IMG/VR virus record: IMGVR_UViG_3300025828_005303
Span: 1 to 64,000 of that record
Strand: one strand, 5' to 3'
DNA: 64,000 nucleotides
DNA from: a virus
The notes beneath the pieces were generated by a model. It saw only the letters and a list, made by a program, of their open reading frames with translations, was not told the DNA's origin and did not search any database. Position numbers and translations under genes: made by a program. Shown here piece by piece: positions 33,400-53,497 of the stretch (position 1 is the stretch's first letter; each line of letters starts with the position of its first letter).

Positions 33400-33409
33400 A
33401 TATAGGTAT

Positions 33410-34849: not shown

Positions 34850-34852
34850 CCA

Positions 34853-36259: not shown

Positions 36260-36279
36260 ATAGTAAAAAAGGAGCAAGA

Positions 36280-36459
36280 ATGGCAACAACTAAACAAAAC
36301 GTGGCAGATTACATAAATGCCAATTATCAATCTGTTTTATCTTCGGAAGAGATTGCCGAATTGGATGAAATGTTGACTCCTGAGAGAGCAGAAATTTTGA
36401 TAAAATTACTTGGAGATGTAAGTTTCTTGGTGCACGTTAGAGATAACGCACCAAACTAA
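36280..36459 (+). CDS. small helical protein between fibre genes
   Basis: A 59-residue frame starts at ATG 36280, preceded by AAAAAGGAGCAAGA (strong ribosome site), and ends five bases before the next fibre start. The product is acidic and helical (SSEEIAELDEMLTPERAEILIKLLGD), with no membrane segment or catalytic motif. Position suggests a fibre assembly helper or minor virion protein. The family is not recognised. Confidence 0.65.
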   Translation: MATTKQNVADYINANYQSVLSSEEIAELDEMLTPERAEILIKLLGDVSFLVHVRDNAPN

Positions 36460-36463
36460 TATT

Positions 36464-38023: not shown

Positions 38024-38027
38024 ATTT

Positions 38028-39014
38028 ATGGCATATACAGCAGGTGACACAATACTAGATGACGAATACAACAATTTTGTGAACAGTTCAAGTTCACCAT
38101 ATGGCATCAACCATATTATCGGAACTGGTGATGGTGACCAGGGACTAGGACAAACTGCGGTAGCCACAGTCACAGCCGGCGACTCGATCACTGCGTCACA
38201 ATGGAATTCATTATTCACGGCAATGGACAACACTGCCAATCACACAAACGACAGTTTAACTTCAACAGCACAGAGATCAGCGGGCGACACGGTACAGGCC
38301 ATTGCGGCACTGGCAACCGATCTAGCCACATTGTCCACATCAGTGGGTGGTGGATCTACAAGCGCCACAGCAGTGTCTGAAGGTTCTGAAGATCTTTCAT
38401 TAGCGGCAACAGGACCGTTCGATACATCACACGTTGTCGAGGCAAGTTACACATTTGATGGTGGAGATGAAGCAAGATGGTTCTTCAACGCAGGTGGTAA
38501 ACTTAGAATCAAATTAACAAACACGGCAACAAACAGCACAGCCAAAGACACATCAATGAGTGCTTTGATCAGTGCCTTGGGAAATTTCGACATTGGTTCA
38601 AAAGTGTCAACAAGATCAGGGTCTGGTGAAACTGTTACAACAAACGGTCTGGCAAATGGCTATTACGATTTGGGTACTAGTTACACAACACTTTTAGAAC
38701 TGACTGAAGACTCAGGAACATATTCAGGAAACATCGCTATCAAGATAGAGGCGAAAGTGTCAACTGCTCACGCAGATGGCAGGAACAACAACGGTGAAGT
38801 CGTAACGGTAAAATGTTCTGCACTACAGAACGATGGCGTCACTGCTGACTACACATCCAACAACGTTGATGGTATTGCGGTAGAGGAAGAGGCAATCGGC
38901 CCAACTGATTTTGCTTTCCATACAGTGGATCCAACAACAGCAGAAGGACTTTCAACAGTATATACAAATGTTGTGGTTGCTTCAGTTTCCAACACAACTA
39001 ACAACGCAGATTAA
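38028..39014 (+). CDS. virion structural protein, probable fibre/whisker component
   Basis: The 328-residue protein starts MAYTAGDTILDDEYNNFVN. The GDxIxxxEYN and GDSITASQWNSLF motifs resemble a repeated motif in marine phage virion proteins. A short helical region (DTVQAIAALATDLATLSTS) is followed by a beta-rich C-terminal domain (ASYTFDGGDEARWFFNAGGKLRIKL...). It is the last gene of the long structural operon and has no cysteine or catalytic motif pattern. A receptor-binding or decoration role is inferred from position. Confidence 0.6.
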   Translation: MAYTAGDTILDDEYNNFVNSSSSPYGINHIIGTGDGDQGLGQTAVATVTAGDSITASQWNSLFTAMDNTANHTNDSLTSTAQRSAGDTVQAIAALATDLATLSTSVGGGSTSATAVSEGSEDLSLAATGPFDTSHVVEASYTFDGGDEARWFFNAGGKLRIKLTNTATNSTAKDTSMSALISALGNFDIGSKVSTRSGSGETVTTNGLANGYYDLGTSYTTLLELTEDSGTYSGNIAIKIEAKVSTAHADGRNNNGEVVTVKCSALQNDGVTADYTSNNVDGIAVEEEAIGPTDFAFHTVDPTTAEGLSTVYTNVVVASVSNTTNNAD

Positions 39015-39026
39015 TTTTTCCACAGG

Positions 39027-39055
39027 TTGAGAAAATCCATAATTAGTGTTATAAT
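39027..39055 (+). promoter_or_regulatory. sigma-70-type promoter with probable leaderless transcript
   Basis: TTGAGA (39027-39032), 17-base spacer, TATAAT (39050-39055). The expected start of transcription (39061-39063) coincides with the ATG at 39062, so the mRNA for the accessory operon would have essentially no leader. Confidence 0.7.
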
Positions 39056-39061
39056 ACTGTT

Positions 39062-39373
39062 ATGGATATTGGCAAAATTAAAGAGTATTCTGACCTCGCT
39101 CATGATCTGGCGCTGACCAAGAAAAATGCGTTGGAAAAATGCAGAGCAAACCAGATATTTGCCTACAATGGAAAACTATTCAAAGCGGATGCAGAAACTA
39201 TCAATCTAGTCAGCACACTTAAATCATATTCCGAGACCTTTACAATACTTGACACGAACCAAAATCCCTGCCAAATAGAAAATCCTGACAATTTCCTTGA
39301 AATTTTAATACAAAAAAATCAAGAAAGTCTCAACGCATACCGTAAACTTCTTGAACAACTGAAGAGAAGATAG
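39062..39373 (+). CDS. small helical protein, first gene of the accessory operon
   Basis: The 103-residue protein is mainly helical with a short central beta hairpin (NQIFAYNGKLFKADAETI) and a C-terminal helix (ESLNAYRKLLEQLKRR). The pattern faintly resembles tail-fibre-assembly or DUF4376-like helpers that follow fibre genes, but no motif is decisive. It lies right after the sigma-70 promoter and ends immediately before the glycosyltransferase-like gene. Confidence 0.55.
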   Translation: MDIGKIKEYSDLAHDLALTKKNALEKCRANQIFAYNGKLFKADAETINLVSTLKSYSETFTILDTNQNPCQIENPDNFLEILIQKNQESLNAYRKLLEQLKRR

Positions 39374-40138
39374 ATGACCAAGGGTGTGTTGTTGTATTGC
39401 TTTGACACCGACGAGGTGAAATATCATAGATTCCTTATCAAATGTGTGAGACAAATTGAAACTTTTCTAAAGTTACCCATAACTGTGGTAACAAATAGTG
39501 AAACGCACAATTTTGTTAAACATCTTGATGTTGGATTTAGGATTATCGAAAATAGAAAAGGCAACACAAGATATTATCGTGGAAAAAATATTTCATGGCA
39601 CAACCTTGAAAGGGTGAATGCGTTATCCCATAGTCCTTATGACCAAACTATCCTCATGGACATAGATTATTTTTGTTTCAGTGATAATCTCCTCAAGTAT
39701 CTGGATACCGACTATGATTTTCTGGTACACGACAAAGTTCTGGATATCACAGGAAAAAATGTAATATTGGGTACCAATGAATCGGTACTGCCTATAGTTT
39801 GGGCTACGGTGATTATTTTTAGGAAGTGTGAACGCACGGAGAGGATTTTCGCACTTGTCAAACACATACAACAAAATTATGAACACTACAGAAATTTGTA
39901 CAGGATCAGACATAGGAATTACAGGAACGACTTTGCTTTCGCGGTGGCCCTGCATCAGATGAATGGAATGATCCCTGTGGAAAATTTTATACCTGCGCCT
40001 ATGTTTATGTTGCCGCACGAGTACGACGTGTTGGACATAGATGATTCTGGACTGATGTTCAGATATGACAAAAGGGTAGGTTACCTGCAGGGAATCGATG
40101 TGCATCTATTGGACAAGGAGTTTGTAAATGGCCGATAA
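39374..40138 (+). CDS. glycosyltransferase-like protein (GT-A type)
   Basis: The 254-residue protein starts with a Rossmann-like strand (KGVLLYCFDTDEVKYHRFL) and carries ILMDIDYFCF (about residues 94-103), a DxD-type metal/nucleotide-sugar site in the expected position for GT-A enzymes. A C-terminal 'VHLLDKEF' segment with an end histidine is typical too. The acceptor is unknown; phage-modified LPS, fibres or DNA are all possible. The stop overlaps the next gene by 11 bases. Confidence 0.6.
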   Translation: MTKGVLLYCFDTDEVKYHRFLIKCVRQIETFLKLPITVVTNSETHNFVKHLDVGFRIIENRKGNTRYYRGKNISWHNLERVNALSHSPYDQTILMDIDYFCFSDNLLKYLDTDYDFLVHDKVLDITGKNVILGTNESVLPIVWATVIIFRKCERTERIFALVKHIQQNYEHYRNLYRIRHRNYRNDFAFAVALHQMNGMIPVENFIPAPMFMLPHEYDVLDIDDSGLMFRYDKRVGYLQGIDVHLLDKEFVNGR

Positions 40139-40922
40139 AGGTTTTATTTGGTTCGCAACCAACACCGACAGTGTTGACTATATCGATCTCAGTAGGAAAC
40201 TAGCAGAAAGCATCAAAAAGCACAACAGTATCAACAAGATCTGCGTGATCACAGACAAGAAAATACAACACGACAAATATTTTGATTACGTGGTCACTAT
40301 GAAAAATCCTTCACATCTGGCCTTCAACAATGAACACAGGATATTTGGCCTGTCGCCGTTTACTCATAGCATAAAATTGGAGGCGGACATGGTTGTGTGT
40401 GGCAATATAGATTGGTGGTGGAATTATCTATGTCGGCACGATATGGTGACAAGCAGGAATTGTTTGAACTACAAAGGCGAGGAAGTGGTGGACAAGCATT
40501 ACAGAGAATTGTTCAGACGCAACTCTTTGCCCAACATCTACAACTGCCTTACCTATTTTAGAAAAAGCAAACTGGCAGAAAATTTTTATAAACTGTGCGG
40601 AGCCATAACAAAAAACTGGAACACAATCAGAGAAGAATGTCTAGTGGGTTGCGACAACGATAGTCCCACTACCGACGAGGTATATGCTTTGGCGTACAAA
40701 ATGCTTGACCCATTGGATGAACACCACGTTGAATTTGACTGGTTCAAGATTGTACACAACAAAAATCTCATAAACGGTATCAGGCATTCCATTGACAACA
40801 ATGAATATTTGAATCCTATGTTGATCAATAATGACCTATATGTTGGAAGTCACAGGCTGTGTGGAATATGGCACTATCATCACAAAAAAACAATGGAGCA
40901 ATTAAATGCCAGGATTTTTTGA
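40128..40922 (+). CDS. glycosyltransferase-like protein (GT-A type), second copy
   Basis: The 264-residue protein has the same general order as its neighbour: GFIWFATNTDSVDYI at the start, KINKICVIT-type strand, and SIKLEADMVVCG (about residues 80-91), where ExD replaces DxD. The C-terminal NDLYVGSHRLCGIWHYH carries the late histidine. Low similarity to the 39374 product suggests an old duplication or two members of one phage family. The substrate is unknown. Overlaps on both sides show tight coupling. Confidence 0.55.
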   Translation: MADKGFIWFATNTDSVDYIDLSRKLAESIKKHNSINKICVITDKKIQHDKYFDYVVTMKNPSHLAFNNEHRIFGLSPFTHSIKLEADMVVCGNIDWWWNYLCRHDMVTSRNCLNYKGEEVVDKHYRELFRRNSLPNIYNCLTYFRKSKLAENFYKLCGAITKNWNTIREECLVGCDNDSPTTDEVYALAYKMLDPLDEHHVEFDWFKIVHNKNLINGIRHSIDNNEYLNPMLINNDLYVGSHRLCGIWHYHHKKTMEQLNARIF

Positions 40923-41193
40923 AGCATTAAACAACAGGAGTAAAAAGAGCAAACGTCATTTTGTTACCATACAAGGCAGGCAACACGAAGTCAGCCTTGA
41001 GAAAAAAATTGAAATTATAAAAAATGGCGAGGACAAGTACTTCGTGAAAGATTCGGTTATACAGTTGAAGAAACCCAAATCGGTTAGATATCCGTTGCTA
41101 CACAAAGACGACAAGGGTTATATTTTCTTTTCGAGAAATCCCTATTGGGTAAAATCTAACGGGCAAGGAGGATACAAATGGAAGGCAGAATGA
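40906..41193 (+). CDS. small basic protein of unknown function
   Basis: The 95-residue protein has a positively charged start (NNRSKKSKRHFVTIQGRQHEV) and several short strands (YFVKDSVIQLKK, GYIFFSRNPYWVKSNGQGGYKWKAE). The final aromatic/Gly segment resembles a small beta domain. It overlaps both neighbours (17 and 16 bases). No recognised family. Confidence 0.55.
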   Translation: MPGFFEALNNRSKKSKRHFVTIQGRQHEVSLEKKIEIIKNGEDKYFVKDSVIQLKKPKSVRYPLLHKDDKGYIFFSRNPYWVKSNGQGGYKWKAE

Positions 41194-42071
41194 GGACAAG
41201 CGATCTGGATTTTGTGTTCATAAGTTTCCGAGAGCCCAACAAGGAAGAGAACTGGGCGGACCTACTGGACAAGGTGCCATGGGCCAAGCGTGTTGATGGT
41301 GTTGTTGGATTCGATTCGGCACACAAGGCCGCGGCAGAACTGGCGGAGACCGACTTCTTCATTAGCGTGGACGGTGACAACGTCATAGACCCAAAATTTT
41401 TGATGGAAACACTAGATTTCGCAAAGACCGATCCCAAAGCGGTACACAGATGGCGTGCCAGGAACAGCGTGAATGGCCTGGTATACGGCAACGGTGGCCT
41501 GGTGGGTTGGCACAAAGACACCTGTCTTTCCATGAAGACACACGAAAATTCGGACAACGAGCAGAACGACATCGACTTCTGTTGGGGAGTGCCACACGAG
41601 AATTTACACAACGTCTACTCTGACACCGTGATAAACAGTTCTCCACAACAGGCCTTTGTCGCAGGATACAGGGAAGGTGTCAAGATGAGCCTGGACAGGG
41701 GCAAAGTGATTTCTCCATCGCAGTTCGTGAAAAATATACAGCCAACCAATCTTAGAACACTGACCACGTGGATGAGCGTGGGGGCAGATGTGGAACATGG
41801 TATGTACGCCATGCTGGGTGCCCGTATCGGATGCTGGATGACAGTGATCAAGGGAATGGATGTCAAACGCATCAGCAGTCTGGAACATCTAAATGACCTG
41901 TTTGGCAAACTACAGATACAACCAGAAGACGATATTAAAAAATATGGCAACAGCCTGAGGCAGAGATTAGGCGTACCCATAGCAGATTATGGCGAGGACG
42001 AAAGCAGATTTTTCAAGTTTTGCCAGGGAGTGTGGGTCAACAAAGGAGTTCAGGATCGTGAGTACCAGTAG
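41178..42071 (+). CDS. glycosyltransferase family 2-like protein
   Basis: The 297-residue protein starts after a perfect AGGAGG site. The motif FFISVDGDNVIDPKF (about residues 60-74) is the DxD site of a family 2-type nucleotide-sugar transferase. RWRARNSVNGLVYGNGGLVGW matches the acceptor-side segment common in marine phage members. The gene is strikingly GC-rich (about 58% in a counted line) compared with most neighbours. It may add sugar to a surface or DNA target; the acceptor is unknown. It overlaps the first radical SAM gene by 14 bases. Confidence 0.7.
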   Translation: MEGRMRTSDLDFVFISFREPNKEENWADLLDKVPWAKRVDGVVGFDSAHKAAAELAETDFFISVDGDNVIDPKFLMETLDFAKTDPKAVHRWRARNSVNGLVYGNGGLVGWHKDTCLSMKTHENSDNEQNDIDFCWGVPHENLHNVYSDTVINSSPQQAFVAGYREGVKMSLDRGKVISPSQFVKNIQPTNLRTLTTWMSVGADVEHGMYAMLGARIGCWMTVIKGMDVKRISSLEHLNDLFGKLQIQPEDDIKKYGNSLRQRLGVPIADYGEDESRFFKFCQGVWVNKGVQDREYQ

Positions 42072-43425
42072 GTATCAGTCAGATGCGGACAGGGCCAGGG
42101 TGAAACTGGATGAGGTATCACCCACAATGTGCCTGGCCAAGTGGAACCAGGTCAGCCTACACCTGCCCACGGGTCTGACAAACAGTTGCTACCACCCACC
42201 CCTGCACGAGATAGATGCCACAGAATTGAAAAACAATCCCGCGGCACTGCACAACACCCAGGAAAAACTGCGACAGCGTGAAGAGATGCTGAAGGGCGAC
42301 AGACCCACGGGTTGTAGTTACTGCTGGAAGATAGAGGACACAGGAGCCATGTCTGACAGGCACTACAGGAGCGGTGAGCCCTGGGCCATGCAGGACTTTG
42401 ACGAGATTTTACAGAATCCAATGACAAAAAGTTGGACGCCGAGATACGTGGAGGTGAACTTCAACAACGCCTGTAACTTCAGGTGCAGTTACTGTTCGCC
42501 ACAGTTCTCGACCAAGTGGGGGCAGGAAGTGGAAAGGTACGGCCAATATCCAACCACTCCTCCCCACAACGCACCCGAGCACTTCCAGGGCAGGCGAAGA
42601 CCCATACCAAACCGCGAGGATAACCCATATGTGAAGGCGTTCTGGGAATGGTGGCCAACACTGTACAAAAATCTCAAGCACTTCCGTATGACGGGAGGAG
42701 AACCCATGATGGACAACAACACCTACAAGGTATTTGATTACGTGATCAAGAATCCCAAACCCGACCTCCATCTCAACGTGACCAGCAATATGTGTCCGCC
42801 CGACGACAGGTTAAAGAACAAGTATTTCGACCAGGTGAAAAGGATATGCCTAGATGGCAGTGTGGAACATTTCATGCAGTTCGTCAGTGTGGATGCCCAT
42901 GGCCGGAAAGCGGAATACATCAGGAACGGACTGGACTACAACAGATTCATAGACAATGTTGACGAATTCCTGGACAGGATACCTGTACGCAACAGCGTCA
43001 CTTTTATTATCACATACAACAACCTCAGCGTAACCAGTATGAGGGACCTGTTGGAAGACATCAAACAACTGAGGCAGAAGCACTCCAGCACCTATCAGCG
43101 TGTGTGGTTCGATGTGCCACTGCTGAGGCAACCAGCCTGGCAACAGATAACGCTGTTACCAGAGGCATACCAGGCCATACATCAAAGCAACACAGAATGG
43201 ATGAGGGAGAATTCTGGAGAAGACAACTACAGTCAATTCAAGGACTTCGAGGTACAAAAAATGCTTCGCAATCTAGCGTACTGGAAAAAAAATTACGCAA
43301 ATAGCATAGAACAAAAAAAGAACTTTTACGCATTTTTTAACGAACACGATCGCAGACGCGGAACAAGTTTTGAAAACACATTTCCCGAAATGCTGGAATT
43401 TTGGAAGGAGTGTAAAAATTTATGA
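42058..43425 (+). CDS. radical SAM protein 1 with N-terminal cysteine (twitch/SPASM-like) module
   Basis: GTG at 42058 is chosen as the start (AAAGGAG nine bases upstream); the longer frame from ATG 41989 would overlap its neighbour by 83 bases. The protein has 455 residues. Residues 25-89 hold four cysteines (MCLAKW, NSCYHPP, GCSYCW), a SPASM/twitch-type auxiliary Fe-S site that here precedes the catalytic domain. CNFRCSYC (139-146) is the radical SAM CxxxCxxC motif, followed by MTGGEPMM. Proteins of this order are known in marine phages and bacteria, with unknown substrates. Codon/base composition is very GC-rich (62% in a counted line), unlike its paralog at 44146. Confidence 0.85.
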   Translation: MSTSRYQSDADRARVKLDEVSPTMCLAKWNQVSLHLPTGLTNSCYHPPLHEIDATELKNNPAALHNTQEKLRQREEMLKGDRPTGCSYCWKIEDTGAMSDRHYRSGEPWAMQDFDEILQNPMTKSWTPRYVEVNFNNACNFRCSYCSPQFSTKWGQEVERYGQYPTTPPHNAPEHFQGRRRPIPNREDNPYVKAFWEWWPTLYKNLKHFRMTGGEPMMDNNTYKVFDYVIKNPKPDLHLNVTSNMCPPDDRLKNKYFDQVKRICLDGSVEHFMQFVSVDAHGRKAEYIRNGLDYNRFIDNVDEFLDRIPVRNSVTFIITYNNLSVTSMRDLLEDIKQLRQKHSSTYQRVWFDVPLLRQPAWQQITLLPEAYQAIHQSNTEWMRENSGEDNYSQFKDFEVQKMLRNLAYWKKNYANSIEQKKNFYAFFNEHDRRRGTSFENTFPEMLEFWKECKNL

Positions 43426-44156
43426 TAATCACACATGGTTGCTCATTTACAAGGTATAGATGGGAGTGCTGGCCGCACTACATCAAATTTTTTGAAAAAG
43501 ATACACCTGTCAAAAACTTAGGAATGTCGGCAAGTGGAAACGAGACAATATCTCGTATGGCTGTGAATAGTTCAATGCGTTTCAAAAATATCAATAAGAT
43601 GTATATTATGTGGTCCGGATACAACAGATATGAAATTATAGAAAATCAATCACTGTTTGAAAAAGTTGCTGATGCCACATACTCGCGTTGGGATCCGGAT
43701 TTCCAGTGGCACGTTTGGTTCGGGGGACACCCTGTTAAAGAGCATCACAAATACTATCAAAAATATTTCTTGAACGAAGACCAAAATAGGTTCAGAACTC
43801 TCGAGAGAATTTGGTATACACAAAAGCATCTTGAATCAAAAAATATAGACTACACAATGATGATATTTAAAGAAGATGTCCTAGAACATAATCCAAAGTC
43901 TGTGGCAGAAAAAATGATATACAACGAAATCAATTGGGAAAAATTTTTGTTTTATGAAGACAAAAAAGGTTTGTGGGAATTTGCTCAAGAAAATTATCCA
44001 AATGATTATGTTGATGGTGACGAACACCCTTTACCTAAAGCACATTACGAATGGACAAAACAGATAATTTATGGAAACGAGAAAAAATTACCCGACGAAT
44101 ATGAACAATCAATAATTACTAGAACACAAGATATAAAAGACAAGTATGAAAGATAA
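43422..44156 (+). CDS. SGNH-hydrolase-like protein 1
   Basis: The 244-residue protein starts at an ATGA overlap with radical SAM gene 1. The beginning ITHGCSFTRYRW has a Ser in the place of the block I nucleophile of GDSL/SGNH hydrolases (GCS replacing GDS). GMSASGNETI supplies a block II Gly, MWSGYNR a block III-like segment, and DEHPLPKAHYEW (near residue 205) a possible catalytic Asp/His block. If active, it could remove or transfer an acyl group from a glycan. Similar order is seen in the 49218 protein. Family membership is inferred from motif spacing, not a search. Confidence 0.5.
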   Translation: MIITHGCSFTRYRWECWPHYIKFFEKDTPVKNLGMSASGNETISRMAVNSSMRFKNINKMYIMWSGYNRYEIIENQSLFEKVADATYSRWDPDFQWHVWFGGHPVKEHHKYYQKYFLNEDQNRFRTLERIWYTQKHLESKNIDYTMMIFKEDVLEHNPKSVAEKMIYNEINWEKFLFYEDKKGLWEFAQENYPNDYVDGDEHPLPKAHYEWTKQIIYGNEKKLPDEYEQSIITRTQDIKDKYER

Positions 44157-45492
44157 CGAATATCAGAAACAAGTATTAGATAAACTTTCTCCGAGTTTTT
44201 GTGGAGCCAAATGGTTCAATGCAACTATATGGTTAGGATCAGGTATGACCACAAGTTGCCATCATCCACCGGCTCATAAAATTGATGTAAATGAAATAAA
44301 AAACAATCCAAGTGCTCTGCACAACACCAAAGAAAAGAAAGAACACAGAAGGCAGATGCAGTGCGGAGAAAGGCCCAAAGGTTGTGAATATTGTTGGAAG
44401 ATCGAAGACATGAACAACGGTTCTGTGTCTGACAGGACCTACAAATCTAAAATATATCCAGAGTCGATATTGAGTGAGGCAAAATCCAGCAGTATTGATA
44501 CAGATTGGAATTTGAAAACTTTAGAAATTGCTTTTGATAGGACCTGTAATTTTGCCTGTTCGTATTGTAACCCAGCATTCAGTACCACATGGGTGAGAGA
44601 TATCAAAACAAATGGTCCATATACAGATTTAAAATCAGATGGTAGAAATCATTTTACACATCCTCATAATGCCGCTCAATTGTATAAACTAGAAGAAACA
44701 AATCCATATGTAGAAGCATTTTTTACTTGGTGGCAAACAGACTTACATAGAAGTCTAGACGAATTAAGGATCACAGGCGGCGAACCTATGATGTCTCCTC
44801 ATTTTTGGCGTTTGCTAGATTGGTTCGCTGACGAGAAGAATAGAGTAAATCCTCATATGAGATTTGCTGTGAACACTAACCTTGTGCCAAAACCAGATTT
44901 GTTTGAAAAATTTTTAGATAGATGTGGCCGGATTCCAAATCTTCATATCTACACATCAAATGAAGCCATGTTTGATCAGGCGGATTACATAAGAGATGGA
45001 ATGAAGTATTCAGAATGGTTTTCAAATTTTGTTAATCTTATGGTTCGTTTACAACCAAAAGGATTTCACGTGATGTGTACTGTGAATGCGTTGTGCTTGG
45101 AATCACTACCAGAATTTCTAAGCAGGATTGTGCAGTTCAAAAAATCCTATCGTCAAGCATTTGGCTCTGATGTCAATTTTACTCTTAACATTTTGAGGTT
45201 TCCTAGTTTCCAATCACCACTTGTCCTTCCAACAGAACTCAAAAAGAAATTTAGGCAAAATTTGATAGAATGGCTTTCAGATAATGAGAGCGATATTGAG
45301 CCGATGGAAAAAGAACACGTGAAAAGATTGATAGAATATTTACAAGAAGTAACATCACCACACGCGGGTGCGGCCGAAATAGACAAATTACAAAAAGATT
45401 TCAAAAATTTTTATGGGCAATATGATAAAAGACGAGGAAAAGACCTAGCAAAAACTTTTCCAATTATAGGAGAATGGTACAGTGGCATATGA
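44146..45492 (+). CDS. radical SAM protein 2 with N-terminal cysteine module
   Basis: The 448-residue protein is a clear paralog of the 42058 product. It has an N-terminal module with SFCGAKW, TTSCHHPPAHKIDVNEI and GCEYCWKIED (four Cys), then CNFACSYC (about residues 140-147) as the radical SAM site and ITGGEPMM. The identical order of INNPSALHNT-type segments shows common descent, yet this copy is AT-rich (33% GC in a counted line) and its paralog is GC-rich. The stop overlaps the next gene by 11 bases. The target molecule is not known. Confidence 0.85.
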   Translation: MKDNEYQKQVLDKLSPSFCGAKWFNATIWLGSGMTTSCHHPPAHKIDVNEIKNNPSALHNTKEKKEHRRQMQCGERPKGCEYCWKIEDMNNGSVSDRTYKSKIYPESILSEAKSSSIDTDWNLKTLEIAFDRTCNFACSYCNPAFSTTWVRDIKTNGPYTDLKSDGRNHFTHPHNAAQLYKLEETNPYVEAFFTWWQTDLHRSLDELRITGGEPMMSPHFWRLLDWFADEKNRVNPHMRFAVNTNLVPKPDLFEKFLDRCGRIPNLHIYTSNEAMFDQADYIRDGMKYSEWFSNFVNLMVRLQPKGFHVMCTVNALCLESLPEFLSRIVQFKKSYRQAFGSDVNFTLNILRFPSFQSPLVLPTELKKKFRQNLIEWLSDNESDIEPMEKEHVKRLIEYLQEVTSPHAGAAEIDKLQKDFKNFYGQYDKRRGKDLAKTFPIIGEWYSGI

Positions 45493-46777
45493 GTACGGGG
45501 CCAAAGAGCCTGAGAAATTAAAAATAAAAGATATGACTCCTAAAGAAAAGGAGTTGCTGATTGATTCGGAGACTTTTTGTATGTTGCCATGGATGCATTT
45601 ACATTCGTTTCCGGACGGTAGAGCATATCCTTGTTGTTTTGCTTTTGACAAATTTGATGTAGGAAATTTAAACAATCAAAGCATGGAGGAAGTATTCAAT
45701 GGTGAAAAAATGAAACAAATGCGATTGAATATGTTGAACAACAAAAAATCAAGAGAGTGTATAAAATGTTATGATCAAGAAAAGTCAGGTTTCTTTTCTT
45801 TACGTTTAAGTTCCAACAAACATTTTGGACATAATATTGGATTGATTAACAGTACCAAAGAAGATGGGTCAGCAGATTTTATAATCAAATATTGGGATAT
45901 CCGGTTCAGCAATTTGTGTAATATGGCTTGTCGTAGTTGTGGCACTTGGTTCTCGTCCAATTGGTATGAAGATCATAAAAAATTGACAGGACAACCACCC
46001 AATCATCCAAAAATTATGAGAGTAGGAAGAGACAGTGATGATATTTGGAAACAGATGTTAGAACAGTTCGAACACGTTGAACAGTTTTATTTTGCTGGCG
46101 GTGAACCTTTAATAATGCCTGAGCACTATAATATTTTGAAAGAATTAGATCGTAGAAAAATGTATCACGTAAGATTGATATACAACAGCAATCTCAGTAG
46201 AACCACATTCAAAGATATGGATGTGTTAGAATTATGGAACAAATTTGATTCAGTTTCAGTAGGAGCAAGTTTAGACGCTGAAGGTCCACGAGCAGAACTA
46301 ATGAGGAAAGGTACTGTATGGGAAGATATTGTAGCAAATAGAAAAAGAATGTTAGATGTTTGTCCGCAAGTAGATTTTTATATCAGTTCTACTGTAGGGT
46401 TGTTGAACAGTTTACACGTAACTGATTTCCATAAAAACTGGGTTGAGTTGGGTTTAATCAAACCACAAGATTTCAATTTCAATCTACTGCAATTTCCAAA
46501 TTGGCAAAGGATGGATTTGTTGCCCAACGAATACAAAGAACAAGTCAAAGAAAAATACGAATCTCATATAGACTGGTTGAAGCCATTAGACAAATTGACA
46601 AGGGCAACCATGGGTTTTGAAAGCGGTCTAGATTATTTGTTTAGGAGAGATATGTCAAAATTTCTACCTACATTTTTTGCCGAAACAAGAAAGTATGACA
46701 GTATAAGAAATGAAAACACAGTAGATGTTTTCCCAGAATGGAAGGAACTGTTCGAGGACTATGAAAATAAAGCCTAA
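45482..46777 (+). CDS. radical SAM protein 3 with N-terminal SPASM-like module
   Basis: The GTG at 45482 (AGGAG nine bases before) gives 431 residues. Residues about 30-105 look like a textbook SPASM segment: FCMLPWMHLHSFPDGRAYPCC, VGNLNNQSMEEVFNG, MRLNMLNN and ECIKCY. The catalytic motif CNMACRSC follows at about residue 140, and AGGEPLIMPEH soon after. The module order (auxiliary cluster first) is inverted from most SPASM enzymes. It belongs to a different subgroup from copies 1 and 2. Overlaps connect it to both neighbours. Confidence 0.85.
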   Translation: MAYEYGAKEPEKLKIKDMTPKEKELLIDSETFCMLPWMHLHSFPDGRAYPCCFAFDKFDVGNLNNQSMEEVFNGEKMKQMRLNMLNNKKSRECIKCYDQEKSGFFSLRLSSNKHFGHNIGLINSTKEDGSADFIIKYWDIRFSNLCNMACRSCGTWFSSNWYEDHKKLTGQPPNHPKIMRVGRDSDDIWKQMLEQFEHVEQFYFAGGEPLIMPEHYNILKELDRRKMYHVRLIYNSNLSRTTFKDMDVLELWNKFDSVSVGASLDAEGPRAELMRKGTVWEDIVANRKRMLDVCPQVDFYISSTVGLLNSLHVTDFHKNWVELGLIKPQDFNFNLLQFPNWQRMDLLPNEYKEQVKEKYESHIDWLKPLDKLTRATMGFESGLDYLFRRDMSKFLPTFFAETRKYDSIRNENTVDVFPEWKELFEDYENKA

Positions 46778-48077
46778 TCAAGGAAACAAAACATTCTGTA
46801 TGGCTCCGTGGACTCATACCTATCTTTCTCCACAGATGGAAAGAAGATTGTGTTGTGCTTCATTGGAAGAATCTCAAAATTTCAAACAGTATATTGATAC
46901 AAAAAATCCAGAAGGAAAACCTGTGGAATTTACAACTTTGGAAGAACACTGGAACAGTGATTATATGAAATCTGTAAGAAAAAAACTTATGGCAGGAGAA
47001 GAAATACCACAGTGTGCTACTTGTAATCATAAACTGTTGAACAGTCAAGTTTATCGTCAGCATTTCAACAGAATGTACAGTGGATTGATAGATGAGGCTT
47101 TTGAAAAAACCAACGAAAACGGACATACAGAATTACAAGTTACTAGTTTTGATTATCGATTTTCAAATCTATGTAACTTTAGTTGTAGAATGTGCGGCGA
47201 TATGTTAAGCAGTAGTTGGGAAACAGAAAACAAAAGGCACGATAATTTTGATTATGATAAAAACCCTTGGGGTAGAAAAGACATCAAAGAGCAGATACAA
47301 AAATTTACTGATCAACAAGTAATCAAAGAGTTTACAGAAGCCATAGAAGAAAAAAGATTACGTGAATTTTATTGGTGTGGCGGTGAACCTTTGATGTGGA
47401 AGATACATTGGGAGGCCATGCAGAGAGTGATTGATTTGGATTATGCCGACCAAGTGTATGCAAGGTATAACACCAATTTTAGCAAGATAGATTATTACGG
47501 AAAAAATCTGTTTGATGATTTACTTGTGAAGTTTCAAGACTGGCAAATCAATGCCTCGATTGATGGGACTGGTCATATCGGTGAATATATTAGAACAGGA
47601 TTGAAGTACGAGCAATGGCTTGAAAATATAAAGTATGCTAAAAAATTTATGAAACATCCAAGACAGTTGCAATTAGATCTGACAGTAACATTGCCTGGTT
47701 TATTTGATTTAGAAAATATGTACAATTTAAGTAAAGATCTCAAACTGATTTTATTGTGTAAAAAAGTTTTTAGTTTTACAGCAGACAATCTTTGGACACC
47801 TTTGTGCTTGCCAAAACATCTTTTACATTCTATTATTGATGGTGTATTGGAAAAAATTCAAGATAAAACAACAATGTTTAATTTGTCTTTCATAGAAGGA
47901 TTGAAAGATATAAAAAATCATAAAACTCTAGAAGAGAAATATTCCAAAGAGGAGTACAGTGAGGGATTGAAAAGAGGCAAAAAAAGAATATTATATTTGG
48001 ACAAAATTAGAGGAACAGACATTACAAAAATATTTGAAAAAAACACAGAGGTTTTAAAATGGTGGAACGATATCTAA
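46761..48077 (+). CDS. radical SAM protein 4 with N-terminal SPASM-like module
   Basis: The ATG at 46761 gives 438 residues and a 17-base overlap with the preceding gene; an ATG 36 bases earlier is possible. The N-terminus has FCMAPWTHTYLSPQMERRLCC, EEHWNSDYMKSVRKKLMAG and CATCNHK (SPASM-type cluster site). CNFSCRMC (about residue 139) is the radical SAM motif and YWCGGEPLMW the GGE segment. In contrast to the others it has an extra Cys before GGEP. AT-rich. The function is unknown; presence of five diverged copies suggests different positions on one substrate or different substrates. Confidence 0.85.
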   Translation: MKIKPNQGNKTFCMAPWTHTYLSPQMERRLCCASLEESQNFKQYIDTKNPEGKPVEFTTLEEHWNSDYMKSVRKKLMAGEEIPQCATCNHKLLNSQVYRQHFNRMYSGLIDEAFEKTNENGHTELQVTSFDYRFSNLCNFSCRMCGDMLSSSWETENKRHDNFDYDKNPWGRKDIKEQIQKFTDQQVIKEFTEAIEEKRLREFYWCGGEPLMWKIHWEAMQRVIDLDYADQVYARYNTNFSKIDYYGKNLFDDLLVKFQDWQINASIDGTGHIGEYIRTGLKYEQWLENIKYAKKFMKHPRQLQLDLTVTLPGLFDLENMYNLSKDLKLILLCKKVFSFTADNLWTPLCLPKHLLHSIIDGVLEKIQDKTTMFNLSFIEGLKDIKNHKTLEEKYSKEEYSEGLKRGKKRILYLDKIRGTDITKIFEKNTEVLKWWNDI

Positions 48078-49225
48078 AATCAAATATATGTCCTCTGCCA
48101 TGGACACATCTGGAAGTGGATGTAAATGGATCAGCATCACCTTGCTGTCTGTACAAAGGCAACATCGAAGATTTTAAAGTTTATGAAACTGATCTTAAAA
48201 CGATACAGCAAAGCGAATACATGAATTCCTTACGTAAGCAGTTCAAAAGCGGACAAAGACCAAACGGGTGCGAAAGTTGTTGGGCAGAAGAAAATGCTGG
48301 CAAAGTTTCTAAAAGACAAAACTCGATCTATAAACTGAGTAAAAGTCTCAAAGATTGGACACCCGATAGCGAGCCAACCTTGAAGTTCATTGACTTTAAA
48401 CTGGGCAACGTTTGTAATCTTAAGTGCAGGATATGTGGTTCTTGGTCCTCATCCAAATGGGCACAGGAAGAATTAGATTACGGAGAGAATCCAGTGGCAA
48501 GAAAAAATTTAAAAGAAGGCGGATGGCCGAAAAAACACCCGCAATTTTTTGAGGAAATAAAAGATGTATTGAAAGATGTAGAATATTTTGAGTTCACCGG
48601 AGGAGAGCCTTTCATGATACAAAATCATTTTAAAATTTTGGAATATTGTGTACAGCAGGGTTACGCCAAAAATCAAGACATACATTACAATACCAATGGC
48701 ACACAGTTGCCTCCGAAAAATGTATTTTGGTTGTGGAAACACTTTAAGAGAGTTGAGATAGCATTCAGCATAGATGATGTGGGAGAACAGTTTGAATATC
48801 AAAGGCACCCAGCAAAATGGAAAGAGGTGAATGAAAACATCCAGAAGTTCAAAGAATATAATCCGGGAAATATAGATTTCCAAATTTGTAGCACCATAAA
48901 CATCTTCAATATTTTCAGTCTGGCAAAATTGGCCTATTGGGTGAAACAGATTGATCCAAAATTTTTCTATGTGAACACTTGTTTTGATCCAGAATATTTT
49001 AACATACAAACCCTGCCGAGACAGATCAAAAATATAGCAACAGACAGATATATCCAGATAAAAGAATTCAAAGGCATAATTGATTACATGAACAGCAGTG
49101 ACAGGTACTCGGAGGAAATGAACAAACAGCGTCGAGATAGAATTTTACTGGCGGACAAACACCGTGGTGAAAAATTTAGTGAAGCATTTCCAATTTTAAA
49201 TAATATGTTGAAAGTTTATGAGTAG
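48059..49225 (+). CDS. radical SAM protein 5 with N-terminal SPASM-like module
   Basis: The 388-residue protein is the shortest of the five. The N-terminal module is NICPLPWTHLEVDVNGSASPCC, MNSLRKQFKSGQRPNGCESCW, very close to the canonical SPASM consensus. The catalytic motif CNLKCRICG (about residue 120) and FTGGEPFM follow. It begins inside the last codons of copy 4 and its stop overlaps the SGNH-like gene 49218. Its substrate may be a peptide, since SPASM enzymes often modify peptides, but other substrates are possible. Confidence 0.85.
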   Translation: MVERYLKSNICPLPWTHLEVDVNGSASPCCLYKGNIEDFKVYETDLKTIQQSEYMNSLRKQFKSGQRPNGCESCWAEENAGKVSKRQNSIYKLSKSLKDWTPDSEPTLKFIDFKLGNVCNLKCRICGSWSSSKWAQEELDYGENPVARKNLKEGGWPKKHPQFFEEIKDVLKDVEYFEFTGGEPFMIQNHFKILEYCVQQGYAKNQDIHYNTNGTQLPPKNVFWLWKHFKRVEIAFSIDDVGEQFEYQRHPAKWKEVNENIQKFKEYNPGNIDFQICSTINIFNIFSLAKLAYWVKQIDPKFFYVNTCFDPEYFNIQTLPRQIKNIATDRYIQIKEFKGIIDYMNSSDRYSEEMNKQRRDRILLADKHRGEKFSEAFPILNNMLKVYE

Positions 49226-50021
49226 TATAGGAAAAGAAACAGTTTTATCGGGCGGTTGTAGTTTCACTTATGGCAACGAGCTCAGCGATGACACAGGTAA
49301 AAATTACAGTAGCAAGACCTGGGCCGCTAGGTTGAATGATACAGTTGCAGGAAATTATTTTTGTGTGGCAAAAGGAGGTTTGGGAAATTCAGGAATTGCT
49401 AGGAGAGTCTTTGACTATGTGGCAAACAGAAAAGAAGAAAAAATAATTGTAGTTGTGATGTGGACATTCCTCAGCAGATACGATTGGGCAATGGCAAGGA
49501 ACAGCAACCTGGAAAGGACAAGATGGGCAACAATAACACCATGGGATACAAATCTACGACAAAAAGAAGTAGAAAACACAATCGGCCACAGTGAACCTGT
49601 GATGGACGAATTCAAAAAGAGACAGCATCTTTACAAAGAAACAGGAATAGGACCGTTCGCTGACAGTCTGTACAAATATGCCGCCAACCAATACCACGAA
49701 GCATATCTCAGTTGGAAATCTATTGTTTGGTTGCAGAACATTTTGGAGAAAAAGAAAATACCATATATGTTCACACTTGCCGATAACAGCCTTTTTTACA
49801 ATGACAAAAAGCCTATCCACAAAGAGGACAGTCTTTTGACCGCACTGTATAACGAAATAGATTTTACCAGATGGTTCAGTTTTGGTGAAAGAATGATGGG
49901 TTTTAACCAATGGGCCAAAATGAATGAATATCCGTACGCCACGACTCATCCACTAGACGAGGCGCACCAAGATGCTGTAAAATTAATGAAGGAGACTTTT
50001 TTAAAATGTTTGAAAAACTAA
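49218..50021 (+). CDS. SGNH-hydrolase-like protein 2
   Basis: The 267-residue protein begins VLSGGCSFTYGNELSDD (block I-like GCSFT) and continues with KGGLGNSGIARR (block II Gly and Asn), VVVMWTFLSRYDW (block III-like) and THPLDEAHQDAVKLM (possible Asp/His pair near residue 250). The order is the same as in the 43422 protein, so the radical SAM run is bracketed by two related SGNH-type proteins. The activity is predicted, not proved: the usual catalytic GDSL Asp is replaced by Cys. It overlaps the first microprotein gene by 16 bases. Confidence 0.5.
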   Translation: MSSIGKETVLSGGCSFTYGNELSDDTGKNYSSKTWAARLNDTVAGNYFCVAKGGLGNSGIARRVFDYVANRKEEKIIVVVMWTFLSRYDWAMARNSNLERTRWATITPWDTNLRQKEVENTIGHSEPVMDEFKKRQHLYKETGIGPFADSLYKYAANQYHEAYLSWKSIVWLQNILEKKKIPYMFTLADNSLFYNDKKPIHKEDSLLTALYNEIDFTRWFSFGERMMGFNQWAKMNEYPYATTHPLDEAHQDAVKLMKETFLKCLKN

Positions 50022-50113
50022 TTGCCAAAATAAAAAAATACCTAAGTGACATTACATACAAAAGAAAACTTAAAAAGTTAAGGAAAAAGAAGGATCCGTA
50101 TCTATACAGATGA
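50006..50113 (+). CDS. basic microprotein A (35 residues, DPYLYR end)
   Basis: A 35-residue frame starts at ATG 50006 within the end of the SGNH-like gene and stops at an ATGA overlap with the methyltransferase. GGAG lies 11 bases before its ATG. It reads MFEKLIAKIKKYL... and ends KKKDPYLYR. It is strongly basic and amphipathic. Microprotein B (50798) is its paralog and sits on the other side of the methyltransferase, so this is very unlikely to be a chance frame. Possible roles: a peptide substrate for the nearby radical SAM enzymes, or a small nucleic-acid- or membrane-binding factor. Confidence 0.7.
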   Translation: MFEKLIAKIKKYLSDITYKRKLKKLRKKKDPYLYR

Positions 50114-50805
50114 GCAAAGTAAAAACATTCTATGACAGAAATCCTTTTCCGGGCAATTACTCGGTAAAAAATTTCCTGACACAGCAAAAACACAGAGATA
50201 ACAAATATATAAATTTTATTGTTGATCAAACCAAAGGTCGAAAAACTTTGCTTGATATAGGATGTGGAACTGGATATATTTCAAACTTTTTGGCCTACAC
50301 AAACAAAGACATAAAAATAACCGGTGTTGATTTCAGCAACGGTGTAGCGATTGCCAAAAAAATTTCTGATAAACTAGGCAACAAAAATATCAAATGGATG
50401 CAGAAAGATTTTATTGAAATGGAAAAATCCAAAAAATATGACGTCATTCTATGCCAGGGTGTGTTACACCATATGCCAGATTACAAACTGGCTGTAACCA
50501 AAATCAAATCTTTGTTGAAGCCAAACGGAATCATACTATTGGGCGTCTATAATAAATGGGTAAAACTTTTACAAAAGATTGCTCCTTTGTCTTTTTTTGA
50601 AAGCAAGATATTAAAAAAAGATCAAATGGAATGCCCGTTTGAAATTGGTTTTGACCACAAAGATGTTCAGGATATGTTTGACGACTACAAAGTGACAGCA
50701 TCGTATCCGATCATATCAAAAATATTCCCTAACTTTCATCTTGTATGGAAGGCAAACAGTGGAGGATTAACAACTTACAAACTTGAAAGGAGAAAATATG
50801 TTTAG
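50110..50805 (+). CDS. class I SAM-dependent methyltransferase
   Basis: The 231-residue protein has the Rossmann methyltransferase order: LLDIGCGTGYISNFL (motif I, about residues 43-57), ITGVDFSNG (acidic end of strand 2), KDFIEMEKSKKYDVILCQGVLHHM (motif IV region) and LKPNGIILLGVY. The N-terminal FYDRNPFPGNY segment resembles methyltransferases linked to surface sugars or lipids. It overlaps microprotein A at the start (ATGA) and microprotein B at the end. The acceptor is unknown. Confidence 0.85.
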   Translation: MSKVKTFYDRNPFPGNYSVKNFLTQQKHRDNKYINFIVDQTKGRKTLLDIGCGTGYISNFLAYTNKDIKITGVDFSNGVAIAKKISDKLGNKNIKWMQKDFIEMEKSKKYDVILCQGVLHHMPDYKLAVTKIKSLLKPNGIILLGVYNKWVKLLQKIAPLSFFESKILKKDQMECPFEIGFDHKDVQDMFDDYKVTASYPIISKIFPNFHLVWKANSGGLTTYKLERRKYV

Positions 50806-50905: not shown

Positions 50906-51493
50906 ATGAATACACTTGCGGAAATAAAAGACAAATTCAAAAACTGGTTCAAAAAAGACCAACGATTTGATCTGAAAGAATTAGTGGAAATAGATGTGCA
51001 GGAAGATCCTGTAAGACCCGAATTGGATTTGGAATTCAGAACATCATATGGACGCAAAATTTTTGGATTGCTCGATCAGGATAAAAACCTAATGGCTATA
51101 ATATGCATCGCCTTTACAAACGAAATTCCTAAAAGTGTTAAGGAGTTAAAAGACATGAGCAAGGACGCACATCTGCAGTCGGTGTTGAGAAATAATCTCG
51201 TGGGTAGAGTCGCTGTGGCTTACACAGTATGGGCCAAGATGAAGGGAGGAGGCAAACACATCCTGAATGAGATATATAAAAAATTTAAAAGAGAAAATCA
51301 CATAGATCGTTTGGTGACTTTATCTCCCATCACAGAAATGGCAGAAAAGTTTCATCTCGGAAACGGAGCAACCTGTCTGCAACAAAATGCCACAACGGTG
51401 AATTATGAATACGACATCACACTAGAGGAATGGCAAGAAAGGGTAGAAAAATTGAAAGAAAAATTCAGTAAAATTAAGTGGAGTATCAAATGA
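50906..51493 (+). CDS. putative acyltransferase (GNAT-like) of unknown substrate
   Basis: The 195-residue protein starts with a basic helix (EIKDKFKNWFKK). A strand ICIAFTNEIP and the segment VGRVAVAYTVWAKMKGGGKHILNEIY are followed by DRLVTLSPITEMAEKFHLGNGA. The Gly-rich turn before a helix (GGGKHIL) and the TLSP...FHLGNGA end look like a GNAT-type CoA-binding fold related to the malonyl-CoA decarboxylase C-terminal region. Similarity is only at the pattern level. It overlaps the DNA glycosylase-like gene by four bases (ATGA). Confidence 0.45.
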   Translation: MNTLAEIKDKFKNWFKKDQRFDLKELVEIDVQEDPVRPELDLEFRTSYGRKIFGLLDQDKNLMAIICIAFTNEIPKSVKELKDMSKDAHLQSVLRNNLVGRVAVAYTVWAKMKGGGKHILNEIYKKFKRENHIDRLVTLSPITEMAEKFHLGNGATCLQQNATTVNYEYDITLEEWQERVEKLKEKFSKIKWSIK

Positions 51494-51888
51494 GAGATGA
51501 CCTAATGGTACAACAACAGGTTAATAGCGTGTGGCAACACATGGTGGGCGTGATATGTCTCAATCAAACCTATAGGAAACAGGTCAAAGAGATACTTCCA
51601 AAATTGTTCAAGAGATATCCAGATCCTGTAAAATTTATTAGGGGTCGAGCGAAAGCACAGGAAAAGATGTTGAAACCGTTGGGTATGTGGAGTGTGAGAG
51701 TAAAAAGGTTGAGACAAATGAGCGTAGATTATCTCACCTGGGACGGAAAAGAGGCAAGTGACCTTTATGGTATAGGAAAATATGGAAGTGACAGTTACAA
51801 AATATTTTATAAGAATGAAATACCGAATGATGTACAGGACAAAGAACTTAAAAAATATATAGAATCTATAGAGGACATTAGAGGATGA
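51490..51888 (+). CDS. HhH-GPD-type DNA glycosylase, MBD4-like
   Basis: The ATG at 51490 overlaps the TGA of the preceding gene; GGAG lies just upstream. The 132-residue protein is a near-minimal glycosylase domain: HMVGVICLNQT, LFKRYPDP, MLKPLGMWSVRVKRLRQMS, YLTW, LYGIGKYGSDSYKIF (helix-hairpin-helix, about residues 91-105) and an Asp before KELKKY that fits the catalytic residue. Segment by segment it resembles the C-terminal domain of MBD4, a thymine/uracil mismatch glycosylase. It might remove or edit a modified base, or act on host DNA. It lies next to a carbamoyltransferase gene, with ATGA overlap. Confidence 0.75.
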   Translation: MRDDLMVQQQVNSVWQHMVGVICLNQTYRKQVKEILPKLFKRYPDPVKFIRGRAKAQEKMLKPLGMWSVRVKRLRQMSVDYLTWDGKEASDLYGIGKYGSDSYKIFYKNEIPNDVQDKELKKYIESIEDIRG

Positions 51889-53351: not shown

Positions 53352-53497
53352 GATATCTAATTATTTTTTTATTCTGTCTAGGTTGTGGTATAAAACCTTC
53401 TGCCACGTGTGGTGTTGATCTAAAAAAGGAAACGATGAAAGAGATCAAGGATAGTTGTATTGAACATCCTCAAGTGGGAGTAAAGGCAGAATTCTAA
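53348..53497 (+). CDS. tiny lipoprotein-like secreted protein
   Basis: A 49-residue frame begins at an ATGA overlap and ends at TAATG with the next gene, so it is coupled on both sides. The N-terminus MRYLIIFLFCLGCGIKP is a short signal peptide followed by a lipobox-like LGC (Cys13). Further Cys at 21 and 37 could form a disulphide. The mature part is about 36 residues. A cell-envelope role such as a superinfection or lysis helper is possible, but there is no family match. Confidence 0.6.
   Translation: MRYLIIFLFCLGCGIKPSATCGVDLKKETMKEIKDSCIEHPQVGVKAEF

Follow-up and report, generated by a model that had tools for sequence, protein, structure and literature searches.

Radical S-adenosylmethionine (SAM) genes have already been reported from genomic islands of T4-like marine phages, without a function in the accessible text of the two papers concerned (PMC7029224, PMC5332604). 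In the islands of pelagimyophages, glycosyltransferases were proposed to alter the surface and radical-SAM cassettes were noted, and the host recognition cluster of these phages belongs to viruses of SAR11 (PMC7029224, in excerpt). The T4-like phage TARA_ERS488813_N000010 carries 12 radical SAM genes together with an A-type iron-sulfur (Fe-S) carrier; the available portion of the paper does not mention an N-terminal twitch for them, nor how they are arranged in operons or any connection with sugars (PMC5332604). Here we describe five adjacent or nearly adjacent radical SAM genes, RS1 to RS5, at 42058-49225 of a stretch of 64,000 nucleotides (the window), which is part of the 70,487-base virus record IMGVR_UViG_3300025828_005303. 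The structural genes in the window are T4-like by PHROG.

How does this locus compare with the described systems? With TARA_ERS488813_N000010, as it appears in the accessible text, it shares a large T4-like marine phage background, an abundance of radical SAM genes and an Fe-S carrier, which is found in 6 of the 15 records analysed here. From the pelagimyophage cluster it differs in having a fixed gene order, five types of the N_Twi_rSAM family, a separate promoter and a T4-like phage whose baseplate is nearest to jumbo phages; the pelagimyophage isolate HTVC008M has no N_Twi_rSAM match. The family itself (NF033640 in NCBIfam) is matched far above its cut-off and nearly at full length by all five proteins, and what sets the locus apart is that five types stand in one phage operon with sugar-type genes. 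The Vibrio phage isolates K566/K567 and KVP40 also have N_Twi_rSAM-type genes near GT8 or PF00534 genes. However, the K566/K567 proteins are only 22-24% identical to those of the window, KVP40 is unmatched by tblastn, and gt41, the gene ahead of RS1, is without a relative among the phage records. Phage glycosyltransferases that alter a surface glycan are familiar from the gtr-type serotype-conversion cassettes; in contrast to these, the window operon has no match to a GtrA-type flippase (Pfam, 17 operon genes) and has many more tailoring enzymes, radical SAM enzymes among them. A fixed five-type operon with gt41, a separate promoter and a sugar context was not found in full-text literature searches, and the five-gene organisation is not described in the accessible text of PMC9301287 or PMC12619734.

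We read the five-gene cluster, with a probability of about one half, as part of a phage operon for the assembly of a glycan and its tailoring by radical chemistry. At the level of sequence, comparison of related contigs shows a conserved block made up of a sigma-70-type promoter sequence of its own, a protein of predicted GT-A fold, five distinct N_Twi_rSAM proteins that retain the Fe-S ligand cysteines, a methyltransferase and a carbamoyltransferase, to which relatives add sugar-nucleotide genes. The five genes are as follows.

42058..43425, + strand: RS1, N_Twi_rSAM radical SAM protein; GTG start, frame open from 41989
44146..45492, + strand: RS2, N_Twi_rSAM protein, paralogue of RS1
45482..46777, + strand: RS3, N_Twi_rSAM protein with a PF13186 SPASM match ahead of the core
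46725..48077, + strand: RS4, N_Twi_rSAM protein; start uncertain
48059..49225, + strand: RS5, N_Twi_rSAM protein with a PF13186 SPASM match ahead of the core

An earlier note on this DNA had claimed five radical SAM genes in this interval, each with a cysteine-rich module ahead of the catalytic domain, and had stated that an N-terminal-twitch class existed by name. Both points are borne out. NF033640 is that class, and RS1 to RS5 score 324.6, 299, 400, 309.5 and 375.8 bits against it (curated cut-off 170 bits), with nearly the whole model covered; the radical SAM core PF04055 is above cut-off in 5/5. Among distinct orthologues from the fetched loci (identity at least 36%, length at least 85%), a four-cysteine N-terminal module followed by CxxxCxxC and GGE[P/T] is found in 84/84 RS1, 74/76 RS2, 65/65 RS3, 66/66 RS4 and 61/61 RS5 proteins. 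The module is thus retained in 350 of 352, and the core motif with GGE[P/T] in all 352. Since shuffled N-terminal parts gave it in only 5 of 7,040 cases, all five of them from RS5, the module lies far beyond chance. When 28 rows of RS1/RS2 type are aligned, seven cysteine positions show no variation. A SPASM domain (PF13186; cut-off 21.5 bits) is matched in front of the core in RS3 (48.4 bits) and RS5 (31.0 bits); RS4 falls below at 17.8 bits, and RS1 and RS2 have no PF13186 match. Compared with three close relatives, the proportion of nonsynonymous differences (pN) in RS1-RS5 is 0.13-0.24 and that of synonymous differences (pS) a near-saturated 0.64-0.93, which indicates strong purifying constraint. 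The GTG start of RS1 at 42058 is preceded by AAAGGAG at 42042-42048 and gives a 14-nucleotide (nt) overlap with the preceding gene; one gene, SGNH1, separates RS1 from RS2.

The same family is abundant in related genomes. Fourteen related records (G001-G014) hold 136 N_Twi_rSAM matches at an E value of 0.001, 114 of them above cut-off, with 5-12 per record. The Fe-S supply may be part of the picture: A-type carriers are recognised by PF01521 and IscU-type proteins by PF01592, the latter in 2 of 14 records. In the 354-kb record G010, the largest related one, IscA-type and IscU-type genes flank an N_Twi_rSAM gene that is just under cut-off (L163, C1:256604-258602), and the IscU match is split across two frames. 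A metagenome-assembled genome (MAG) of Elusimicrobia (G021/L177, contigs CAIRTQ01, 2.9 Mb) has 48 N_Twi_rSAM places above cut-off, with 81 of 114 candidates scored; many lie in open frames of 600-1200 amino acids (aa), and six consecutive long frames appear by eye to fuse repeats of the tetratricopeptide type to N_Twi_rSAM.

What do the five enzymes act on? The structure model of RS1 has a mean predicted local distance difference test (pLDDT) score of 91.2 and a predicted template-modelling score (pTM) of 0.88, and is confident in most of the N-terminal cysteine stretch. In VIA-align, the core resembles SkfB (Z score 14.5), BlsE and DesII (14.0), SuiB (13.8), anSME (13.3) and viperin (13.1). 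This is a mixture of peptide maturases (SkfB, SuiB) and enzymes of sugars or nucleosides (DesII, BlsE, viperin), which counts against taking the structure as support for a sugar substrate: because the neighbours are mixed, peptide, sugar and nucleotide substrates are not told apart in this way. The N-terminal module is barely tested by these alignments, since most rows span residues 122-435, while SkfB and a few others begin near residues 46-67. Viral models among the matches listed match RS1 at nearly full length, with best TM scores of 0.78/0.89.

The same data bear on the idea that the substrate is a fibre, the Gly-rich protein of the neighbouring tail region or a small peptide, which would be modified as by anSME or the SPASM-type maturases of ribosomally synthesised and post-translationally modified peptides (RiPPs). 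We consider this unlikely. The top structural neighbour of RS1 is indeed a RiPP maturase, SkfB, and models of anSME and StsB match the N-terminal module of RS3 with their SPASM portion, but most structural matches are limited to the shared core. Possible peptides are at hand, as three operon gaps of 88, 100 and 145 nt contain open frames of 35, 39 and 49 aa, and a fibre could also serve as substrate; however, considering the gaps alone, none touches any of RS1-RS5, all lying further downstream, and the conserved neighbours are glycosyltransferase-like and sugar-nucleotide genes. The 49-aa frame takes up exactly the 145 nt that separate CarbT from gt53 (53348-53497).

The reading as a glycan operon depends on the company that the five genes keep. 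The surrounding features are these.

31915..39014, + strand: fibA, fibB, Gly-rich, fibC and g38, tail-fibre or virion-type genes directly upstream of the operon
39027..39055, + strand: putative sigma-70-type promoter, TTGAGA-17-TATAAT
39062..39373, + strand: g39s, first small gene of the operon; recurs here in relatives, no Pfam or PHROG match
39374..40138, + strand: gt39, glycosyltransferase-like by its conserved DxDY motif alone; no Pfam or PHROG match
40128..40922, + strand: gt40, glycosyltransferase-like by reading; PHROG 1903 (no function), no Pfam match
40906..41193, + strand: g40s, small gene in many but not all relatives; no PHROG match, Pfam matches at chance level
41178..42071, + strand: gt41, predicted GT-A fold; usually precedes RS1
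43422..44156, + strand: SGNH1, SGNH-hydrolase-like by motif; no Pfam family over cut-off
49218..50021, + strand: SGNH2, conserved, SGNH-hydrolase-like by motif (N-terminal GCS, C-terminal DxxH)
50110..50805, + strand: class I SAM-dependent methyltransferase; PF13847 (3.3e-24), PF08242 (3.4e-19)
50906..51493, + strand: AT, possible acyltransferase; sub-threshold PF05292 match only
51478..51888, + strand: HhH-GPD-like gene (base-excision glycosylase superfamily); PF00730 at 25.8 bits, cut-off 26.2
51885..53351, + strand: CarbT, carbamoyltransferase; PF02543 (145.3 bits), PF16861 (185.1 bits), phrog_1601
53497..54783, + strand: gt53, last gene of the block, glycosyltransferase-like by reading; recurs here, no Pfam or PHROG match

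Not all of these genes are equally constant. The place of SGNH1 is taken by another family, or by no gene, in many relatives. Across the 158 loci compared, the methyltransferase has 4 orthologues and AT has 66; the HhH-GPD-like gene is 72-82% identical where it is present in other phages and is missing from many relatives. CarbT is a carbamoyltransferase of the NodU/TobZ type, over the cut-offs of 24 bits for PF02543 and 27 bits for PF16861. SGNH2 has no Pfam match, and its profile finds only chance-level matches in the PDB. In gt39, D96 and D98 of the DxDY motif are invariant. Upstream, fibA, fibB and fibC have PHROG tail-fibre or virion matches, and g38 has no family match in PHROG or Pfam.

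Are the five genes a unit, or a chance gathering? The 158 loci, found in two scans, were merged by shared identical 300-mers into 86 contig groups, one of which (L001/L081) is a near-copy of the window. Of these groups, 45 extend from gt39 to CarbT, and all 45 contain all five RS types, a count conditional on gt39, RS1 and CarbT lying within one fetched stretch. Leaving other genes aside, the order gt39-gt40-gt41-RS1-RS2-RS3-RS4-RS5-SGNH2-CarbT is kept in 35 of the 45; the remaining groups have RS4 and RS5 swapped, some with extra copies, and this swap characterises a more distant group. Directly upstream of RS1 stands gt41 in 75 of 84 groups, and in five of the other nine it stands two or three genes ahead. 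In 75/75 groups, at least one of the five genes that precede gt39 is of fibre type (fibA, fibB, fibC or Gly-rich).

The history of the set is told by a tree of 113 rows, made by a quick method and with several long branches, so that the placement of long rows is unsure. RS2 and RS4 each form one clade (support 100) and RS1 with RS2 another (100). The main group of RS3 sequences falls together with proteins from Elusimicrobia bacteria (98), and RS5 falls among N_Twi_rSAM proteins from other places in phage genomes. A single tandem duplication as the origin of RS1-RS5 is rejected by this tree, according to which the set was assembled and then kept. Eighteen divergent loci hold one to three RS types and never all five. 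Six have RS1 as their sole type, five have RS1-RS2-RS4, another six combine RS1 with RS3, in some cases together with RS5, and one has RS1-RS2-RS5; a few of these stretches stop soon after RS1. Most retain gt39-gt40-gt41 ahead of RS1, and it therefore looks as if gt41-RS1 formed the core, on which the set of five elaborates.

This history could suit a view in which RS1-RS5 are moron-like insertions, unrelated to one another and sharing no function, as there was no single tandem duplication, RS4 and RS5 change places in the more distant group and the divergent loci have only some of the types. We regard that view as highly improbable, given the presence of all five types in every spanning group, the overlapping reading frames and the strong purifying selection. 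It is plausible that the five enzymes act in one multi-step pathway. The earlier note had placed the five genes in one operon, and the 45 spanning groups show them as one conserved unit. It had described the genes as five diverged copies, which is not how they now appear: RS1 forms an ancient pair with RS2, RS4 stands separately, RS3 goes with bacterial proteins and RS5 with other proteins of phages. Independent insertions, the outcome that it had named as refuting, were looked for in the gene neighbourhoods and not found in the close lineage, while the divergent loci hold subsets only. Of the accompanying genes that it listed, the methyltransferase and carbamoyltransferase follow as described, with Pfam matches, whereas the SGNH assignment stands on motifs and the acyltransferase on a sub-threshold match. 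It was silent on the glycosyltransferase-type genes ahead of RS1 and on the separate promoter.

The link to carbohydrates begins with gt41. Its AlphaFold2 model has a pLDDT of 90.7, and the top Foldseek rows are glycosyltransferases. In VIA-align the best solved structures are B4GALNT1 (Z 10.3, 3.0 A over 142 residues), ThuS and WrtF (9.1) and a PBCV-1 capsid glycosyltransferase (8.3); PF00535 is matched below threshold. A GT-A fold is thus predicted, as a fold and not as an activity: since nucleotidyltransferases of the same fold reach Z 8-9 against gt41, the fold alone is no proof of glycosyl transfer. The second line of evidence comes from relatives: of 34 groups, 22 have a nicotinamide adenine dinucleotide (NAD)-dependent epimerase and 18 a DegT-type aminotransferase in the space between CarbT and gt53 (PF01041 is found in 13 of the 15 records). 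Other inserts in the cluster include a UDP-glucose/GDP-mannose dehydrogenase, an FkbM methyltransferase and an adenosine 5'-phosphosulfate (APS)-kinase-like protein. Among 46 representatives of insert families there are also one alternative oxidase (PF01786, 9.4e-79) and one aspartyl/asparaginyl hydroxylase.

The pairing recurs outside the cluster. At a second place in the record G004, an epimerase gene and a sub-threshold PF00534 gene lie between two N_Twi_rSAM genes. Six N_Twi_rSAM matches, two of them above cut-off, lie in the isolate Vibrio phage K566; genes 0303, 0305 and 0306 are of this type with the GT8 gene 0304 among them, and 0308 lies beside the GT8 gene 0309, both GT8 proteins being above the PF01501 cut-off. 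KVP40 has four matches, none above cut-off, and one of these is two genes from a PF00534-annotated gene.

Several observations weigh against a carbohydrate role. The genes gt39, gt40 and gt53 match no function-assigned family in Pfam or PHROG, and sequence profiles of gt39 and gt41 find only chance-level matches in the PDB. The window's own record has no DegT (PF01041) match. Many N_Twi_rSAM genes outside the cluster neighbour genes that are not sugar-like by eye; in a Paenibacillus sp. locus (L182, 6256-16645), such a gene stands amid genes that resemble, by eye, those for acyl carrier protein, ketosynthase, ligase and short-chain dehydrogenase/reductase. That locus may represent a lipid or polyketide pathway with the same enzyme class. 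To these points must be added the mixed structural neighbours of RS1, the divergent loci with incomplete sets and the groups that lack a good promoter match (see below).

A different use of sugar-type enzymes in phages would be the modification of DNA. Glycosyl-, carbamoyl- and methyltransferases, the HhH-GPD-like protein and the radical SAM enzymes might together make a protective modified base. Phage radical SAM enzymes are known in base hypermodification, the operon contains both the HhH-GPD-like gene (just under cut-off) and the carbamoyltransferase gene, and thymidylate synthase occurs in 5 of the 15 records. Yet the constant linkage of the block is to tail-fibre genes; Tet_JBP is also unmatched in the 15 records, a weak point since the controls were silent as well. 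Base hypermodification by the operon is therefore judged very unlikely. Two loci (L160, 12711-13598; L162, 2049-2936 and 3538-4188) have, by eye, QueE-like genes and a YhhQ-like transporter gene near extra N_Twi_rSAM genes, and 7-deazaguanine modification of DNA is possible in these phages.

When is the operon expressed, and on what would the glycan be placed? The putative promoter lies between the g38 stop (39014) and the ATG of g39s at 39062, and its -10 box is separated from that ATG by 6 nt. A site that matches at least 10 of 12 positions, lies wholly past the g38 stop and has an ATG close behind was found in 49 of 73 groups (at least 11 of 12 in 23 of 73), which leaves 24 of 73 contig groups below 10/12 at this place. 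By a looser count the site is present in 50 of 73, compared with about 5 expected from base-shuffled sequence, and the ATG is exactly 6 nt past the -10 box in 44 of 57 groups. A count over the 120 nt upstream of the called g39s start gave 27 of 60, lower because some called starts lie upstream of the promoter. This 6-nt geometry points to a message from a host-type promoter that is probably leaderless. By eye, the promoter is palindromic in close relatives.

Within the window this is the sole site of at least 11/12 shortly before a + strand gene, while five genes on the opposite strand have sites of 10-12 matches within 36 nt of their starts. At the opposite-strand genes starting at 62083, 60172 and 56259, the sigma-70-type matches leave 5-6 nt from the -10 box to the start codon, and this phage perhaps has a leaderless promoter class. 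Such sites are rare before most downstream genes of the operon, RS5 having one in 12 of 61 groups, and before the fibre genes. The pattern suggests that the operon is expressed separately from the late fibre genes and probably earlier. A candidate late promoter, TATAAATA, has been rejected: it has 2 matches in the window, not above chance, and CTAAATA occurs 10 times against 8.65 expected. With one mismatch allowed, TATAAATA is found before g38 in 48 of 74 groups and before SGNH2 in 38 of 53.

The promoter and the fibre linkage bear on the choice between two possible targets of the proposed glycan. In the first, the acceptor would be the phage's own Ser/Thr-rich fibre-region proteins just upstream, and the glycan would shield the virion or alter its adsorption. 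The fibre-type gene upstream of gt39 in every group fits well with this, as does the lack of a GtrA-type flippase match. The proteins fibB and g38 contain 25-26% Ser+Thr, compared with 7-13% in the operon proteins, but the fibres of marine phages are commonly rich in Ser and Thr. Also against virion decoration, the promoter type of the operon is rare before fibre genes and resembles that of the opposite-strand genes. Glycosylation of virions is known in mycobacteriophages, according to work cited in the accessible text of PMC12619734. Decoration of the virion can be held as a tentative alternative. In the second, the glycan would remodel the surface of the infected cell. Within the glycan reading, remodelling of the host surface is somewhat more likely, because the promoter is like that of the opposite-strand (probably early) genes and because the operon is linked to the fibre genes.

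Under the glycan reading, cytoplasmic glycosyltransferases (gt41 and probably gt39 and gt40) would assemble a short glycan. Each N_Twi_rSAM enzyme would then form a 5'-deoxyadenosyl radical at the cluster bound by CxxxCxxC and use it to remove a single hydrogen from a carbon of the sugar, with a [4Fe-4S] site held by the four N-terminal cysteines accepting or donating an electron. The outcome might be serial epimerisation, deoxygenation or dehydrogenation beyond the reach of ordinary NAD-dependent enzymes. The products would be capped with methyl, carbamoyl and probably acyl groups, and the finished glycan would remodel the infected cell's surface, masking the receptor of the neighbouring fibres. 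This full proposal, in which N_Twi_rSAM proteins are a class of radical enzymes that edit carbohydrates and have the auxiliary cluster ahead of the core, five of them work in series from an early-type promoter in an uncultured lineage of large aquatic phages and the heavily edited glycan masks the receptor of the phage's own linked fibres, is put forward as a possibility with the odds still against it.

Which phages carry the operon? Identity with pelagimyophages of the HTVC008M type was considered and dropped, as two core proteins were tested and both have jumbo phages on top among the matches listed. The baseplate protein at 15149-18640 is 37.0% identical to that of Phosso, 35.8% to that of Atu_ph07 and 36.5% to that of SCTP-2 over 87-95% of its length, and 43.8% identical to PA5oct-type phages over 59%; the ATPase at 57682-58782 is 51.5% identical to that of PA5oct-type phages. 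No pelagiphage is among the matches listed for the baseplate protein (best 20 of 61 records) or the ATPase (best 15 of 816), and the best places go to jumbo phages. A cyanophage or pelagiphage identity was likewise rejected: P-SSM2, S-PM2 and HTVC008M, along with SCTP-2 and T4, have no N_Twi_rSAM match at an E value of 0.001, and Atu_ph07 has one weak partial match. The baseplate wedge gene is followed by an open frame of 4198 aa (18643-31239).

Among 50,697 phage records, gt41 has 0 matches, the matches to RS1 and RS3 are weak and confined to two Vibrio phages, and RS5 has weak matches in three records; RS5 has no match among plasmids. Scans of viral contigs gave 109 relatives of RS3 and 103 of RS1, of which the best 80 of each were retained. 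With gt41 unmatched in the phage records and so many relatives among viral contigs, the lineage is common, yet that collection has no close isolate of it. Contigs with 75-76% identity to RS3 (L171-L175) have been binned in MAGs of Pelagibacter, Verrucomicrobia, Betaproteobacteria, Rickettsiales and Flavobacterium; these are probably phage contigs within bacterial bins and perhaps a hint of the host.

The name of the family NF033640 says nothing about function. The usual pairing of its members here with a protein of glycosyltransferase fold, and their interleaving with GT8 genes in an isolated vibriophage, lead to the proposal of radical chemistry on sugars. If this is true, N_Twi_rSAM proteins would add a class of glycan-tailoring enzymes. 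It would also suggest why the 14 related records carry 5-12 such genes above cut-off, some with Fe-S carriers, and the genes for receptor binding and for surface remodelling would be linked in these phages as one heritable block.

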